From NCBI GenBank assembly GCA_013450215.1, contig JACDSH010000034.1, positions 1 to 32,115 on the forward strand: DNA of 32,115 bases, written 5' to 3'. This document shows, piece after piece, positions 27,654-32,115 of this stretch. A model generated the notes under the pieces. That model did no database searches and was not told the DNA's origin. It worked only from the letters and a program-made list of their open reading frames with translations. A program made the position numbers and the translations under genes. Position 1 is the first letter of the stretch. Each line of letters opens with the position of its first letter. This stretch comes from Nitrosospira sp. (GTDB lineage: Bacteria > Pseudomonadota > Gammaproteobacteria > Burkholderiales > Nitrosomonadaceae).

Positions 27654-28337
27654 GTGCATATACTTATCATCGAAGACGACCGTGCCATCGCAACCAATCT
27701 CTATGATTTTTTAGAAAGCAGGGGTCATAGCGTTGATGCGGCGGCCGATGGCGTGACCGGACTTCATCTCGCGATTACTCAACCATTCGACGGCATCCTT
27801 CTTGATATTGGATTGCCCGGCATGGACGGGATCACACTCTGTCGAAAGCTCCGTCGGGAGGCCCATCTCGATACGCCGGTACTGATGCTGACCGCGCGAG
27901 ATATGCTTGAAGATAAGCTGAAGGGTTTTGAGAGTGGGGCAGATGACTACCTGGTCAAGCCATTTGCATTGAAAGAGGTCGAGGCACGCCTGGTTGCAAT
28001 GCATAAGCGTCATAGCGGGAAGGTGATCAGCCGGATATTAGAGTCCGGTGACCTGTCATTCGATCCGAAGACCATGTCTGTTAATTTTGCGGGTGAAGGG
28101 GTTAAGCTGCCTCCAAAATGTATCCGATTGCTGGCACTGATGCTGGGAGAGCCTGGCCGTGTATTCAGCCGTAAAGAACTTGAGTCTGGGGTCTGGGGGG
28201 GCGTTCAGGAGACCAGCGACACCCTCCGTAGCCATATGCATGAGTTAAGGCGTGCATTGCTCCGGGCGGGGAGCTACGATCCGATCGAGACCGTCCACGG
28301 CCTCGGCTACCGACTGAATACGCGTGCTCGAGTTTAA
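27654..28337 (+). CDS. OmpR/PhoB-family response regulator
   Basis: The 227-residue product is a DNA-binding response regulator. The receiver domain has the acidic pair Glu7-Asp8-Asp9, the phosphoacceptor Asp51 (GILLDIGLPGMDG), Thr80 (LMLTARD) and Lys102 (LVKPFAL). A C-terminal winged helix follows, with GRVFSRKELESGVWGG and ETVHGLGYRLN. The start is GTG 27654, with AGGA nine bases upstream; no competing start gives an intact first strand. The frame overlaps the start of the kinase gene by 14 bases, so the pair is translationally coupled. The regulon is unknown. Confidence 0.93.
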   Translation: MHILIIEDDRAIATNLYDFLESRGHSVDAAADGVTGLHLAITQPFDGILLDIGLPGMDGITLCRKLRREAHLDTPVLMLTARDMLEDKLKGFESGADDYLVKPFALKEVEARLVAMHKRHSGKVISRILESGDLSFDPKTMSVNFAGEGVKLPPKCIRLLALMLGEPGRVFSRKELESGVWGGVQETSDTLRSHMHELRRALLRAGSYDPIETVHGLGYRLNTRARV

Positions 28338-29592
28338 GAGAGGACTGCGCCTACGTATTGCGCTGACATTCGCAATATTCAGTATACTTGTTGTCGGAAC
28401 ACTCGGTATCAGTCTCTATGTCGCCTCAGGCGATATTGAGGAGGCTCATATTGATCAGGTCATTGAGATGGAGATGGAACATCTCATCGAGCGTTACCGT
28501 CAGCAACCTAATTTTGTTCCGCAAGCTGGGTCCAACCTCGAAGAGTACATCCTTCCTGAACGTTCAGATGAGCTCCGTCTTCCCCCCTATCTGCAAGGTC
28601 TCAATCAGCGTCGGCATGTAGTATTTCGCGGCCCTCAGGAGGTCAGGGCCGCTGTACGTCATGTGGAGGGGGTCAAGTTTCTGGTCGCGTACGAAATCGG
28701 ATTGCATGAGCAGCGTAAGCGTGACTTTGGGCTGCTGATCGGACTATCCTTAATCTCTCTGATTGTGGTTGCGCTCGTGGTGGGATATCTGCTCGCTGGT
28801 CTCCTAGTCAGGGAGGTCGCAGATCTTGCAGGGCAGGTGAGGAAGCTCGCGCCAGGCAATGTTCAGGGGGTGCCACTGACACAGCCTGGTATGGATGTAG
28901 AGGTGGCCCAACTTGCAAATGCGCTGGATGATTACCAAAAACGGATCAGACGGATGTTGCAGCGTGAGCAGGAGTTCACGGCCAATGTAAGTCATGAGAT
29001 GCGTACCCCAATCACGACCATCTTAACGAGCTGTGAGTTGCTGGCAGCGGAGTCGAACATGTCCGAGAAGGTGCGTAACCGAATCGGCATGATCGAGTCT
29101 GCCGCGACTCGAATGGGTGAGCAGCTTCAGGCGTTATTATTTCTTGCTCGGGAGCAGGCACTGGGCGTTATGGAATTAGTTTCAATCGCAGAGTGTGTAT
29201 ACGATGCGGCCGAGCATCTACGCCCCGAAATCACGCTTAAGCAACTTGATTTTGAGGTGGATGTGGAACTAAATGCGGTCCTCACACTGAACCGGCAAGC
29301 CCTTCAGACGGCACTGGTGAATTTGCTTCGGAATGCCGTTCAATATACCTCTCAAGGGTCTGTGAAGGTTAAATTTAAGGGCCGCAAACTCACAATCTCT
29401 GATTCAGGAATTGGCATCGAACCCTCTTACCTGCCCTTCCTATTTGAACGGTTCTTCCGTGGGTCGACCCAGGGGGAGGGTCTTGGGATTGGACTCGCGA
29501 TTGTGCAGCGCATCTGTGATCATTACGGATGGCTGATCGAGGTGGACAGTACGCCTGGGTATGGAGCGACTTTCCATATCACCTTTCCCTGA
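28324..29592 (+). CDS. Membrane sensor histidine kinase
   Basis: The 422-residue protein is the partner of the response regulator just upstream. Two transmembrane helices (about 11-34 and 136-160) enclose a periplasmic sensor of about 100 residues with no recognised ligand domain. A HAMP-like linker leads to the H-box FTANVSHEMRTPITT (His224). The ATPase domain has the N-box NLLRNAVQYT near 337, DSGIGIEPSYLPFLFERFFRG and GLGIGLAIVQRICDHYG. All catalytic motifs are intact. The start is GTG 28324, inside the regulator gene. The signal is unknown; proximity to hemE and sbtA is suggestive only. Confidence 0.93.
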   Translation: MLEFKRGLRLRIALTFAIFSILVVGTLGISLYVASGDIEEAHIDQVIEMEMEHLIERYRQQPNFVPQAGSNLEEYILPERSDELRLPPYLQGLNQRRHVVFRGPQEVRAAVRHVEGVKFLVAYEIGLHEQRKRDFGLLIGLSLISLIVVALVVGYLLAGLLVREVADLAGQVRKLAPGNVQGVPLTQPGMDVEVAQLANALDDYQKRIRRMLQREQEFTANVSHEMRTPITTILTSCELLAAESNMSEKVRNRIGMIESAATRMGEQLQALLFLAREQALGVMELVSIAECVYDAAEHLRPEITLKQLDFEVDVELNAVLTLNRQALQTALVNLLRNAVQYTSQGSVKVKFKGRKLTISDSGIGIEPSYLPFLFERFFRGSTQGEGLGIGLAIVQRICDHYGWLIEVDSTPGYGATFHITFP

Positions 29593-29612
29593 CAAGAGTG
29601 ATCTTGATATTC

Positions 29613-29642
29613 TTGACATCACAAATTAATCACATCTAAAAG
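29613..29642 (+). promoter_or_regulatory. Possible sigma-70 promoter of sbtA
   Basis: A consensus TTGACA at 29613-29618 is followed after 18 bases by TAAAAG (29637-29642; four of six matches to TATAAT). It lies about 80 bases upstream of the sbtA ATG. A perfect -35 with only a fair -10 fits a regulated promoter, but other spacings are possible. Confidence 0.4.
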
Positions 29643-29657
29643 AGGATTTCTTCACAT

Positions 29658-29681
29658 TTGTTGTGATATTTTGCGCAACAA
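29658..29681. promoter_or_regulatory. Dyad operator candidate upstream of sbtA
   Basis: TTGTTG (29658-29663) and CAACAA (29676-29681) form an inverted repeat with a 12-base spacer, in the leader between the candidate promoter and the sbtA ribosome-binding site. The size and spacing suit a dimeric regulator such as a LysR-type protein. Bicarbonate transporters are often controlled by such regulators; the assignment here is inference. Confidence 0.35.
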
Positions 29682-29721
29682 GCAATTGTAGTAGAAAACA
29701 AAATAATTACGGAGATCAGAA

Positions 29722-30678
29722 ATGCCAACCATACAACCGGTAGTACTATTTTTTATCTTAGGCGTCTTGGCTGGGGTCTTAAAGTCTGACCTGAAGATCC
29801 CAGAGGCTTTATATAAGAGTATGAGTCTCTTCCTACTGATCGCGATCGGTATGAAGGGTGGGGTCTCAATGGCCAAGTACGAAATCATGGAAGTTCTGCC
29901 GATTGCTCTGTCGATGGTTGTGCTGGCAGCACTGGTTCCATTATGTGCTTACCCCATACTGAAAAAGATAGGTAAGTTCAGTCAGGCTGATGCGGGGGCT
30001 ATAGCGGCCCACTACGGATCGGTGAGTGCGGTGACCTTTGCGGTGGGCCTTGCCTTCTTGGAAGGTAAGGGCGTGGAAGCTGAAGGTTACATGGTCCTGA
30101 TCATGGCGCTGATGGAGATTCCTGCACTTGTGACCGGTACAGTCTTGGCAAGGCGAGGTGCCGGCGGTGAGACCCCATGGGGCAAGCTGATGCACGAGAT
30201 CTTAACAGGAACCAGTATCTTCTTGATGGTGGGCGGGGTCATTATCGGTTACTACGCCGGTATAGTGAAGTTGGTCTCACCACTCGACAAGATGTTCATG
30301 GATCTGTTCATGGGGGTGCTGGCATTCTTCTTACTTGAGATGGGTCTGCTGGCATCAGCTCGATTGGACGCTATCCGGAAGAAGGGCCTTTTCCTGGTGG
30401 TGTTCGGGATACTGTTCCCGCTCACTGCGGGGTTATTCGGTGCCTTTCTGGGTGGGATGTTTGGACTGTCTCTGGGTGGTACCACAATGCTGGCTGTGTT
30501 GTATGCTAGCTGCTCCTACATCGCGGCCCCTGCGGCAATGCGGATCGCAGTGCCGGAAGCGGATCCAGCGGTATCGATCGGTGCCTCACTCGGGATAACG
30601 TTCCCATTCAACATCTTTATCGGCGTCCCGATCTACTTTGCAATGGCGGAATTTTTTGTGGGTGCCGCTGGTAAGTAG
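29722..30678 (+). CDS. sbtA: SbtA-type sodium-dependent bicarbonate permease
   Basis: The 318-residue, highly hydrophobic inner-membrane protein has about ten predicted helices arranged as two inverted halves. The first half carries AAHYGSVSAVTFAVGLAFLE (95-114), a signature of SbtA, the cyanobacterial sodium/bicarbonate symporter. The second half carries the matching segment YASCSYIAAPAAMRIAVPEA near 266-285. The length is near, though below, cyanobacterial SbtA (about 370), because the cytoplasmic loop after helix 5 is short. ATG 29722 follows a good ACGGAG Shine-Dalgarno. No SbtB (PII-like partner) gene follows directly. It probably supplies bicarbonate for carbon fixation and PEP carboxylase. 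Confidence 0.88.
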   Translation: MPTIQPVVLFFILGVLAGVLKSDLKIPEALYKSMSLFLLIAIGMKGGVSMAKYEIMEVLPIALSMVVLAALVPLCAYPILKKIGKFSQADAGAIAAHYGSVSAVTFAVGLAFLEGKGVEAEGYMVLIMALMEIPALVTGTVLARRGAGGETPWGKLMHEILTGTSIFLMVGGVIIGYYAGIVKLVSPLDKMFMDLFMGVLAFFLLEMGLLASARLDAIRKKGLFLVVFGILFPLTAGLFGAFLGGMFGLSLGGTTMLAVLYASCSYIAAPAAMRIAVPEADPAVSIGASLGITFPFNIFIGVPIYFAMAEFFVGAAGK

Positions 30679-30706
30679 GGGCTCTAGATTTTGTTTCGAT
30701 CAAGGC

Positions 30707-30738
30707 GGGCCGCTTAGGGGCGGCTCATTTATTGTTTG
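30707..30738 (+). terminator. Terminator-like hairpin after sbtA
   Basis: GGGCCGC (30707-30713) pairs with GCGGCTC (30720-30726) through seven pairs, one of them G-U, around a six-base loop. A T-rich run (ATTTATTGTTTG) follows. It lies 29 bases after the sbtA stop. The tract is imperfect, so termination may be partial. Confidence 0.5.
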
Positions 30739-30790
30739 TATGTGTATATAAAAAATTTGTAAGAATGCATCTATCCTGCTGTTTGAAATA

Positions 30791-30807
30791 AGATACACGT
30801 AGTATCT
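30791..30807. promoter_or_regulatory. Inverted repeat AGATAC-N5-GTATCT
   Basis: A perfect six-base inverted repeat with a five-base centre (ACGTA) sits just after a TTGAAA (30783-30788) and before the strong Shine-Dalgarno at 30816. It could be an operator over a promoter for the downstream genes, or a small mRNA hairpin. The -10 element is not clear. Confidence 0.3.
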
Positions 30808-30827
30808 AGTCAAAAAGGGAGGCGGGG

Positions 30828-31034
30828 TTGTTGGATAGCTTAATCAAACAACGTTACGTTAGATATGGCCCTGGCGGGAGCAGTGTCATGCGTCTTCGAT
30901 TGCTATCCGGCATTCAATATATCCTGAGGAATGCTCGTTTCATTATAAGAGTGATTGGCCCTCCGCTCACCTGGTTCTGCCGTGGAACCCTCTCCCGGCC
31001 TTCAATTGCCTTCAAATCAAGTTTTAAAGTGTAA
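30828..31034 (+). CDS. Possible small basic protein preceding the NuoM-like gene
   Basis: A 68-codon frame opens at TTG 30828 (a second TTG follows at 30831), immediately after AGGGAGGCGGGG, one of the strongest Shine-Dalgarno-like sequences in the window. It ends 9 bases before the ATG of the NuoM-like gene. The product would be basic with a moderately hydrophobic middle (IQYILRNARFIIRVIGPPLTW) and no recognisable domain. Its tail looks non-selected. It may be a real small protein, a translated leader that couples to the downstream gene, or chance. Conservation in relatives would decide. Confidence 0.3.
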   Translation: MLDSLIKQRYVRYGPGGSSVMRLRLLSGIQYILRNARFIIRVIGPPLTWFCRGTLSRPSIAFKSSFKV

Positions 31035-31043
31035 GCCGGAATC

Positions 31044-32115
31044 ATGGGAATACTTAGCTTATTGCTTTGGACTCCTATAGTAGGCATTTTTGTTATATCT
31101 TTCACCTCTGGAACGGATACCCGTTCCATCCGTTTCCTGGCAAATCTTTTTGCGACCCTCACATTCCTAGTCAGTTGCTGGCTGATCGTTATTTATGATC
31201 AGCAGGATAGTGCCATACAGTTCAGCGAGCAGTTCACGCTCAACCCTAAACTCGGTAGCGCCTTCGCATTAGGGGTTGATGGATTGTCGATACCGATGCT
31301 GGTATTAGCGGCGCTACTCACCTCGGTTGCGATGCTGGCATCCTTTACCATTTCACATGGGGTTAAGAGTTTCCATATCTGTATTCTGCTGCTGGAGTTC
31401 GGGATGTTGGGCGTGTTCATGGCTCAGGACTGGGCCATGTTTTACATCTTCTGGGAACTGACCCTGATCCCGCTATTCTTTCTGATTGATCGTTGGGGTG
31501 GTAAGAGGCGTCACTCGGCCAGCCTTAACTTCGTTCTATACACGATGGGTGGTTCTATCTTTATGCTGATCAGTTTGCTTGCGATCGGCCACTACATGCC
31601 AGTCCAGGGTGGTTCATTGATGGCCTCAATGACTGAGGCCGCACGAAGCATGCCTCGGGATGAACAGGTCTGGGTGTTGATGGGATTTCTACTCGGCTTT
31701 GGTGTGAAGATGCCGATCTTCCCGCTACACGGATGGTTACCTCTAGCTCACGTTGAAGCGCCCAGCCCGGTCAGCATTCTCCTGTCCGGTGTATTACTGA
31801 AGATGGGTGCTTATGGCCTTATAAGGGTCGTGGTCATGCTGCCGGAGGCGGCCCTAGTATTACAGCCCTATCTCGTCTTCCTAGCGCTGTTCGGGATGAT
31901 TTACGGCGGGTTGTTGGCGTGGCGACAGAGCGATCTCAAGGCTATGGTGGCTTACTCCTCGGTCAGCCACATGGGCATTGTCTTGTTGGGGATCGCCGCC
32001 CTCAATGAGACAGGGCTCATGGGTGCAGTGTTGCAGATGTCCGCTCACGGGTTGATTGCAGGTGCGATGTTCTTGCTGGTGGGGTTACTGTATGAGCGGA
32101 CCCATACCCGCAATA
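31044..32115 (+). CDS. NuoM/NdhD-like proton-channel subunit, partial
   Basis: This antiporter-like (Proton_antipo_M) membrane subunit is open to the window end (357 codons of an expected 480-530). It begins MGILSLLLWTPIVG, as NuoM does, with GVDGLSIPMLVLAALLTSV near 77-95. Channel residues match NuoM: Glu138 in YIFWELTLIPLFF, Lys222 in VKMPIFPLHGWLP, and Lys253 in LLKMGAYGLIRV. The usual WLPDAH reads WLPLAH (231-236), an Asp-to-Leu change. No nuoL precedes it, so this is not a standard nuoA-N context. It may be part of complex I, or of a carbon-uptake complex of the NdhD/NdhF/CupA or DAB kind. The neighbouring sbtA favours the latter (inference). Confidence 0.85.
   Translation, partial: MGILSLLLWTPIVGIFVISFTSGTDTRSIRFLANLFATLTFLVSCWLIVIYDQQDSAIQFSEQFTLNPKLGSAFALGVDGLSIPMLVLAALLTSVAMLASFTISHGVKSFHICILLLEFGMLGVFMAQDWAMFYIFWELTLIPLFFLIDRWGGKRRHSASLNFVLYTMGGSIFMLISLLAIGHYMPVQGGSLMASMTEAARSMPRDEQVWVLMGFLLGFGVKMPIFPLHGWLPLAHVEAPSPVSILLSGVLLKMGAYGLIRVVVMLPEAALVLQPYLVFLALFGMIYGGLLAWRQSDLKAMVAYSSVSHMGIVLLGIAALNETGLMGAVLQMSAHGLIAGAMFLLVGLLYERTHTRN

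Follow-up and report, generated by a model that had tools for sequence, protein, structure and literature searches.

Cyanobacteria energize CO2 hydration via the NuoL/M-type subunits of their NDH-1MS and NDH-1MS' complexes. DAB2 of Halothiobacillus neapolitanus was resolved by cryo-electron microscopy as a complex of DabA2 and DabB2, for which one-way CO2 hydration driven by the proton motive force (PMF) was proposed from the structure and assays (PMC13144422). According to the available part of that report, a DabA finger occupies part of the place of the last NuoL helices, alanine at DabB2 H260 or K347 impairs activity, the equivalent of E144 is Ile151, and DAB1 and DAB2 have one PF00361 subunit each (PMC13144422). 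CsoSCA2, a truncated CsoSCA homologue that has the active-site residues and is encoded outside carboxysome loci, is called unstudied in the accessible section of another account, which lists an N. oligotropha copy (PMC9164163). Here, we analyzed a 32,115-nucleotide stretch of Nitrosospira sp. DNA (contig JACDSH010000034.1 of assembly GCA_013450215.1; hereafter, the window), at whose right end a gene for an SbtA-family transporter precedes one for a NuoM-like subunit, designated M1. We consider it likely that the locus is a module for inorganic carbon (Ci) uptake, in which M1 and the products of the four genes that follow it in relatives (DabA, L, M2, and M3) would form a complex that hydrates CO2 at the expense of the PMF, in effect a form of DAB with four antiporter-like subunits.

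M1 is the first gene of a conserved five-gene cluster with dabA

The window is the entire contig C18 of a 1.6-Mb genome (59 contigs, 99.8% complete), and the contig stops exactly at the window end, inside the M1 gene (31044..32115, + strand), so that the frame is cut after the N-terminal 357 of about 490 amino acids (aa). Though truncated, M1 matched Proton_antipo_M (PF00361) at an E value of 6.9e-56 and scored 390.8 bits on the NuoM model TIGR01972, whose cutoff is 263.8. It is 91% identical to the full-length M1 of locus L030, and only 38% identity was found with the NuoM of its own genome. Among the matches listed, the nearest loci (L030 to L033 and L092, 87 to 91% identity) were all from Nitrosomonadales.

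A preliminary description of this DNA had named an SbtA permease followed by a NuoM-like gene outside any visible nuo operon. The matches to Sbt_1 and to the two NuoM-type models bore out the pair, and a standard nuo operon was located elsewhere, on contig C17 (nuoA to nuoJ by Pfam; nuoL, nuoM, and nuoN by search; nuoK by position and length only). As a check, the description had asked for NdhF/NuoL-like and ChpX- or DabA-like genes beyond position 32115, and genes of the NuoL-like and DabA-like kinds were found: in relatives, DabA follows M1 directly and L comes next, and the copies of the source genome lie on contig C22, which begins within dabA and continues with L, M2, M3, a carbonic anhydrase (CA)-like gene, and a CPII-like gene. 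The complete nuoA-N operon named there as the contrary outcome did not lie downstream, where relatives have the cluster, and the suggested ChpX/CupA-like protein failed to appear, as PF10216 had no match in a Pfam scan of nine cluster proteins.

In the intact loci L030 to L032, the order is response regulator, kinase, SbtA, CPII-like protein, M1 (490 aa), DabA (1092 aa), L (522 aa), M2 (~540 aa), M3 (~500 aa), and CA-like protein (356 aa), and the ORF lists of these loci hold no nuo core gene inside the cluster; L033 is of the same type but cut. Since congeners carry the same genes in the same order, the pairing of SbtA with M1 is not a matter of chance.

Conservation was assessed in the best 80 of 515 loci from one scan of genome contigs. 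When a gene split into two open reading frames was counted as one, M1-DabA-L-M2-M3 was complete and collinear in 59 of them, mostly from Nitrosomonadaceae and methanotrophs; another 20 were collinear until a contig end interrupts, and the last, L094, carried a lone M1. Long DabA was rarer across 369 genomes of the class, around whose best DabA matches 19 further loci were fetched. The full set was present in 10 of these 19 (L198, L201 to L208, and L211, with M1 cut in L206 and M3 split in L201), and ten further class loci thus keep the same order, at 36 to 61% identity. Three (L210, L212, and L214) were cut by contig ends and otherwise agreed with it, L209 is considered below, and L213, L215, and L216 showed other arrangements. 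The remaining two, L199 (9799-12936, genome G208) and L200 (5353-8490, G339), from genomes of one family, had only DabA and, beside it, a 1045-aa protein in which L is fused with an M2-like half; M1 and M3 were not seen in the fetched stretches of either. From this fusion we argue that M2 sits beside L.

Two side observations concern other DabA genes. A two-gene DAB lies immediately upstream of the five-gene cluster in Methyloglobulus and a relative (L089 162-4642 and L090 5033-9510). In L216 (874-11102, G165), a 950-aa DabA stands beside an apparent Mrp-type operon, the subunits of which were assigned by BLAST, size, and order only.

The four antiporter-like subunits form distinct groups

To place the four subunits, a tree of 88 proteins was used, in which 109 rows had been reduced by the 20 rows of five loci (L038, L045, L072, L091, and L207) and a 74-aa fragment (L025). 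Both L-M2 fusion proteins were placed whole, and cyanobacterial NdhD and NdhF were left to NCBIfam scores. M1, M2, and M3 formed three separate clades (SH-aLRT 100, 100, and 98). The M1 clade sits beside complex I NuoM (SH-aLRT 97) and not within it, contrary to the placement that would have spoken against the preliminary description, and M1 is not part of a nuo operon either. L and the fusion proteins clustered with four of eight DabB references, taken from two- or three-gene DAB loci (SH-aLRT 99), and, at the lower value of 86, with all eight; none of the four subunits grouped with MrpA or MrpD. Each cluster has four PF00361 subunits, not the single one of DAB1 and DAB2; Schmid 2021 reportedly lists one to three subunits. 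The earlier expectation that a NuoM-type subunit would make the locus unlike DAB did not hold, since DabA and a DabB-like L are present and three NuoM-type subunits are added to them.

Channel residues were compared with E. coli NuoM (L217), in which we take the four positions to be E144, K234, K265, and E407; each of the counts for M1, M2, and M3 includes two duplicate loci (L192 = L045 and L193 = L092). All four residues are kept in M1 (94/94) and M3 (71/71). M2 keeps K265 alone, K234 being replaced by R and E144 and E407 being lost in all 73 proteins, 62 of which have the Glu of an E-x-x-P motif close to the E144 site; the M2 halves of the fusion proteins show the same losses. In L, the ion-pair residues are kept (E144 in 78/79, R175 in 79/79, D178 in 77/79, and K229 in 79/79). 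Its match to NuoL ends near residue 361, and no clear hydrophobic segment was seen from about 330 to 498, so most of the NuoL C-terminal helices appear to be absent from L.

In the M1 subtree, the Nitrosomonadaceae (with L093) nest inside the three Methylococcaceae sequences used, with SH-aLRT 96 for the group excluding L107, which hints that the cluster may have been transferred from methanotrophs to Nitrosomonadaceae.

Long-form DabA retains the zinc site

The catalytic subunit was identified by PF10070, with E values of 6.5e-229 for the partial DabA of the source genome and 1.7e-253 for that of L030, and cluster DabA matched DabA2 (9rd0) at 1.7e-80. The zinc-site residues C351, D353, R355, H524, and C539 (DabA2 numbering) aligned and were invariant in 49 of 49 rows, comprising 46 long-form proteins (including those of the fusion loci L199 and L200 and of the lone L213) and three from two-gene loci; the motifs are also present in the partial protein of the source genome. 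With PF10070, the zinc site, and an adjacent NuoL/DabB-type partner, the clusters agree with the broad definition of DAB/DAC, L209 being the exception. Relative to the three two-gene proteins, long DabA has four insertions, and position 678 is K or R in all 46 long-form rows and in none of the three others. An AlphaFold model (pLDDT 81.9) has helices at 629-655 and 657-680 in the finger region, and it is our guess that K678 may replace NuoL K399 in function.

Transporter, regulator, and anhydrase genes at the cluster

The gene upstream of M1 (29722..30678, + strand) encodes a 318-aa protein of the SbtA family, judged by domain (Sbt_1, PF05982, E value of 1.3e-111) and by similarity to Synechocystis SbtA (7cye, 9.9e-29), with sodium-dependent bicarbonate transport as its predicted activity. 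It is the one Sbt_1 match in a search of the source genome. Between it and M1 (30679..31043), four congeners have a CPII-like P-II gene and the window genome has none, the gene falling in a gap of the alignment; a search of the interval before M1 for inverted repeats gave none. An open frame at 30886-31032, directly before M1, is preserved in the window and in four congeners (five genomes). As a small gene it was rejected: the differences show no third-position excess, so the frame is probably not coding. In the source genome, a CPII-like gene (PF00543 match) lies after the CA-like gene at C22:8744-9061 (L026), and L030 and L032 carry both copies. The best Protein Data Bank (PDB) match of the C22 protein was 5d4n (6.2e-07), which we take to be CPII, the carboxysome-associated P-II protein.

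The slot upstream of M1 could be read in 17 Nitrosomonadaceae loci that extend 2.5 kb or more on that side, and 14 of them have a bicarbonate-type transporter in it, either SbtA with CPII or SulP with a universal stress protein (USP); L038, L068, and L073 were the exceptions, and the lone-M1 locus L094 was left out. L092, for instance, has the SulP-USP pair in place of SbtA-CPII. Farther upstream in the window lie genes for an OmpR/PhoB-type response regulator (27654..28337, + strand), a probable regulator of the locus, and its partner sensor histidine kinase (28324..29592, + strand), both with NCBIfam matches; the position of the kinase gene is conserved in relatives, and orthologues of the two precede the carbon-uptake genes in L030 to L033. 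The relative G007 (L185 94-8987), in which the five-gene cluster was not found, has the same two-component system, then the SulP-USP pair, and then a two-gene DAB; AmoA is present in this genome, and RuBisCO had no match at 89% completeness. Because G007 pairs them with a two-gene DAB, the slot and the regulator are associated with carbon uptake irrespective of the type of DAB, and the two-component system is a candidate Ci regulator of the locus.

The 356-aa CA-like protein resembles CsoSCA weakly by sequence (PF20686, E value of 3.6e-05; 8thm, 1.2e-4) and clearly by fold (Foldseek against 8thm, 5.9e-13), although its model is of moderate quality (pLDDT 71.8) and of low confidence at residues 43-67, near the active site. 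All 18 proteins compared have C42, D44, R46, H102, and C112. By its predicted fold, active-site residues, shortened N terminus, and location outside a carboxysome locus, the protein fits the short CsoSCA2 type. Of the 20 Nitrosomonadaceae loci that extend 8.9 kb or more past M1, 15 have this gene after M3 (L055, L064, L068, L074, and L082 lack it); none of the 34 Methylococcales loci that extend 8.3 kb or more has it there. In two low-completeness congeners (L140 and L141; G004:C165 and G005:C106), the CsoSCA2 copies are apparently frame-shifted pieces.

Long-form DabA and carboxysome shell genes rarely coincide

AmoA, one RuBisCO large subunit, and one DabA were found in the source genome, and a search of it for carboxysome shell (BMC) genes returned none, the control being positive in E. 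coli and Synechococcus. Among 125 Nitrosomonadaceae genomes, 50 had long-form DabA (at least 58% identity, fragments included), 15 had BMC genes, and G106 alone had both, one genome against six expected (Fisher P = 0.004, uncorrected for relatedness, with 7 of the 15 BMC genomes belonging to one genus). No shell gene matched in 49 of the 50 genomes with long DabA or in 110 of the 125, some of which are incomplete. The genus concerned, g4, includes G023, in which M1 and a fragment of DabA occur with no BMC match. Strict mutual exclusion of cluster and carboxysomes was rejected on account of G106. DabA proteins resembling that of DAB1 were present in four Nitrosomonadaceae genomes (G013, G050, G056, and G111), with only 28 to 44% identity over pieces of the sequence.

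Proposed function and competing explanations

We propose that SbtA imports bicarbonate under the control of a CPII-type P-II protein and that M1, DabA, L, M2, and M3 form a single membrane complex, an enlarged variant of DAB/DAC. CO2 would enter by diffusion and be hydrated at the DabA zinc site, bicarbonate would be trapped in the cell, and proton influx would make the reaction one-way. L would be the DabB equivalent that docks DabA, the membrane finger of which may fill the place of some of the last NuoL helices. Having lost its channel residues, M2 is probably structural, and it probably adjoins L. M1 and M3, with intact channels, are the first candidates for conducting the driving protons, with sideways coupling as in complex I. 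In cells without carboxysomes, the CsoSCA2-type anhydrase would convert bicarbonate back to CO2 for RuBisCO, and the module as a whole would concentrate carbon. The observations behind this proposal are the genes and their order, the conservation of both, the residues, the phylogeny, and the presence of RuBisCO with no BMC match; assembly into one complex, its stoichiometry, substrate, and direction, the number of protons per CO2, and the roles of M2, CsoSCA2, CPII, and the two-component system are inferred from them.

Several observations weigh against the uptake module as proposed. At the locus itself, C18 and C22 are linked by synteny: about 1.1 kb, gauged from congeners as the end of M1 and the first ~225 dabA codons, is absent between them and was not found in the source genome, where M1 occurs on C18 only and DabA on C22 only, and we infer that the two contigs adjoin. 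Two loci depart from the set. L094 (10001-11410) has an M1-like protein of 469 aa and no DabA or other subunit in the remaining 4.6 kb, possibly a relict or an assembly join, and in L209 (5162-9990, G469) M1 and DabA adjoin and unrelated genes follow, with no L, M2, or M3 within the next 6 kb. Key residues of DAB2 are also changed. L has Y at H254 and R at K342 in 79 of 79 proteins (the equivalents of DabB2 H260 and K347) and E at the position of DabB2 I151 in 78 of 79, and the DabA2 finger residue E444 aligns to a variable position that is E in only 1 of 46 long-form rows. The DAB2 proton path therefore cannot be copied to the cluster, although the Y and R substitutions are not unique to L, since four of the eight DabB references carry both; four of the eight have E144. 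A search of the AlphaFold DabA model against PDB folds returned nothing at an E value of 0.001 or below, a null result that is uninformative because the DAB2 entries probably postdate the fold library, which ends on 8 April 2026.

The physiological side is qualified as well. AmoA was found in 6 of the 25 genomes searched and 2 of the 9 in the genus, where most members without it are incomplete assemblies, so most relatives are labelled ammonia oxidizers on taxonomic grounds. Methylobacter and its relatives, which are ribulose monophosphate (RuMP) pathway methanotrophs, carry the five-gene cluster too, and RuBisCO supply hence cannot be its general role. The source genome also has one beta-CA, on contig C8, which ruled out CsoSCA2 as its sole anhydrase.

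Among the alternatives, the one that survives best, although we regard it as unlikely, is that the complex I core takes up M1, L, M2, and M3 as alternative distal subunits, with DabA replacing CupA, as a proteobacterial counterpart of NDH-1MS. The closeness of M1 to complex I NuoM and the NuoL ion pairs E144/R175 and D178/K229 retained in L fit this explanation, and the absence of core genes from the cluster does not by itself exclude it, because the cyanobacterial ndhF3-ndhD3-cupA operon is also separate and lacks them. However, L is DabB-like and apparently devoid of most C-terminal NuoL helices, no ChpX domain was detected in the nine proteins scanned, and the DAB2 structure, in the available account, consists of DabA2 and DabB2 alone (PMC13144422).

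Still less probable is a cation/proton antiporter or pH-homeostasis system of the Mrp kind, in which DabA is regulatory and the function is only distantly related to DAB. PF00361 is common to Mrp subunits, the DAC homologue MpsAB is argued to use sodium in the part of the DAB2 report available (PMC13144422), and the apparent Mrp-type operon of G165 includes a DabA gene (L216; BLAST, size, and order only). Against it, the four subunits fall outside the MrpA and MrpD groups, the catalytic residues of DabA are invariant, and bicarbonate-type transporters and an anhydrase are common neighbours. The five genes abut in L030, moreover, so that small Mrp subunits could not fit in between.

We give scarcely any credence to an ordinary two-part DAB of DabA and L, beside which three NuoM-like genes merely happen to lie and serve complex I. 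M1 does belong to the NuoM superfamily, above the cutoff of the NuoM model, and in L094 it occurs without DabA nearby. Yet the five-gene order is kept from about 44% DabA identity upward, L and M2 are fused in two genomes, L209 pairs M1 with DabA with L not nearby, M1, M2, and M3 each form a clade of their own apart from complex I NuoM, and the source genome has separate nuoL, nuoM, and nuoN genes.

The least credible is an energy-conserving machine running in reverse, suggested for DabA operons in 2017 (PMC5700660, available part), in which the reaction catalyzed by DabA is exergonic and ions are exported through the four subunits. The presence of several channel-type subunits for each catalytic one does resemble a pump, and M1 and M3 retain all four channel residues checked. 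CO2 hydration (pK 6.35) is far too weak for this, however, yielding ~6.6 kJ/mol at pH 7.5, when moving one proton against an assumed 150 mV takes ~14.5 kJ/mol. In addition, uptake by DAB2 is reportedly uncoupler sensitive (PMC13144422, available part), and the neighbours are often bicarbonate-type transporters.

The preferred PMF-driven uptake module can be tentatively extended to a geared CO2 pump, for which we would put the chances at somewhat below even. The DabA-DabB proton path would be handed to the added subunits M1 and M3, coupled sideways via the degenerate M2, and at least two protons would be spent per CO2 hydration. If this is true, low-energy chemolithotrophs could accumulate bicarbonate at a low PMF or very low CO2, an alternative to carboxysomes. 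Ammonia oxidizers are the drivers of nitrification and have little energy to spend on fixing CO2, and there is no good account of how those without carboxysomes acquire it. A conserved form of DAB that has four channel-type subunits offers an answer. It also provides a natural experiment on coupling, as CO2 hydration can be compared between one channel subunit (DAB2) and four, among which the intact and the degenerate channels have fixed places, which makes the proton drive of DabA and the sideways communication of complex-I-type subunits testable in E. coli.

Comparison with known systems

That NuoM and SulP genes lie near some DabA operons was already noted in 2017 (PMC5700660). COGNAT clade C of that study, in which ybcC (dabA) lies upstream of nuoL with COG1008 NuoM and COG0659 SulP nearby, is very likely the same group as the five-gene cluster or one overlapping it, although the available part of the account gives no gene set, order, taxa, residues, anhydrase, or function in dissolved inorganic carbon (DIC) uptake (PMC5700660). 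In the open literature, with subscription journals largely outside it and some papers available in part, no description was found of the five-gene form, the degeneration of M2, the link to CsoSCA2, or the near-exclusion of carboxysomes.

With NDH-1MS and NDH-1MS', the cluster would share the energizing of CO2 hydration through NuoL/M-type subunits, and the NdhF3 structure 6tjv was matched in the PDB search; it differs in having DabA in place of CupA/ChpX and no complex I core gene within it. As for CsoSCA2, the accessible section of PMC9164163 makes no mention of a DAB neighbour, whereas here a CsoSCA2-type gene ends the cluster.

DAB1 of H. neapolitanus likewise has a long DabA (1046 aa reported), a NuoL-type subunit, and a P-II/SbtB-like gene nearby, but in the parts of the two accounts available it comprises three genes with one PF00361 subunit and lies in a carboxysome locus (PMC13144422, PMC4633670). 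The likeness to DAB2 lies in a catalytic subunit of the PF10070 family whose zinc-site residues are the same, the NuoL-related partner, and the helices predicted here by AlphaFold in the finger region. In contrast to DAB2, the cluster has four PF00361 subunits instead of one and a DabA of 1092 rather than 870 aa, and DabB2 H260, K347, and I151 and DabA2 E444 are not kept, while K or R stands at position 678 throughout the long form.

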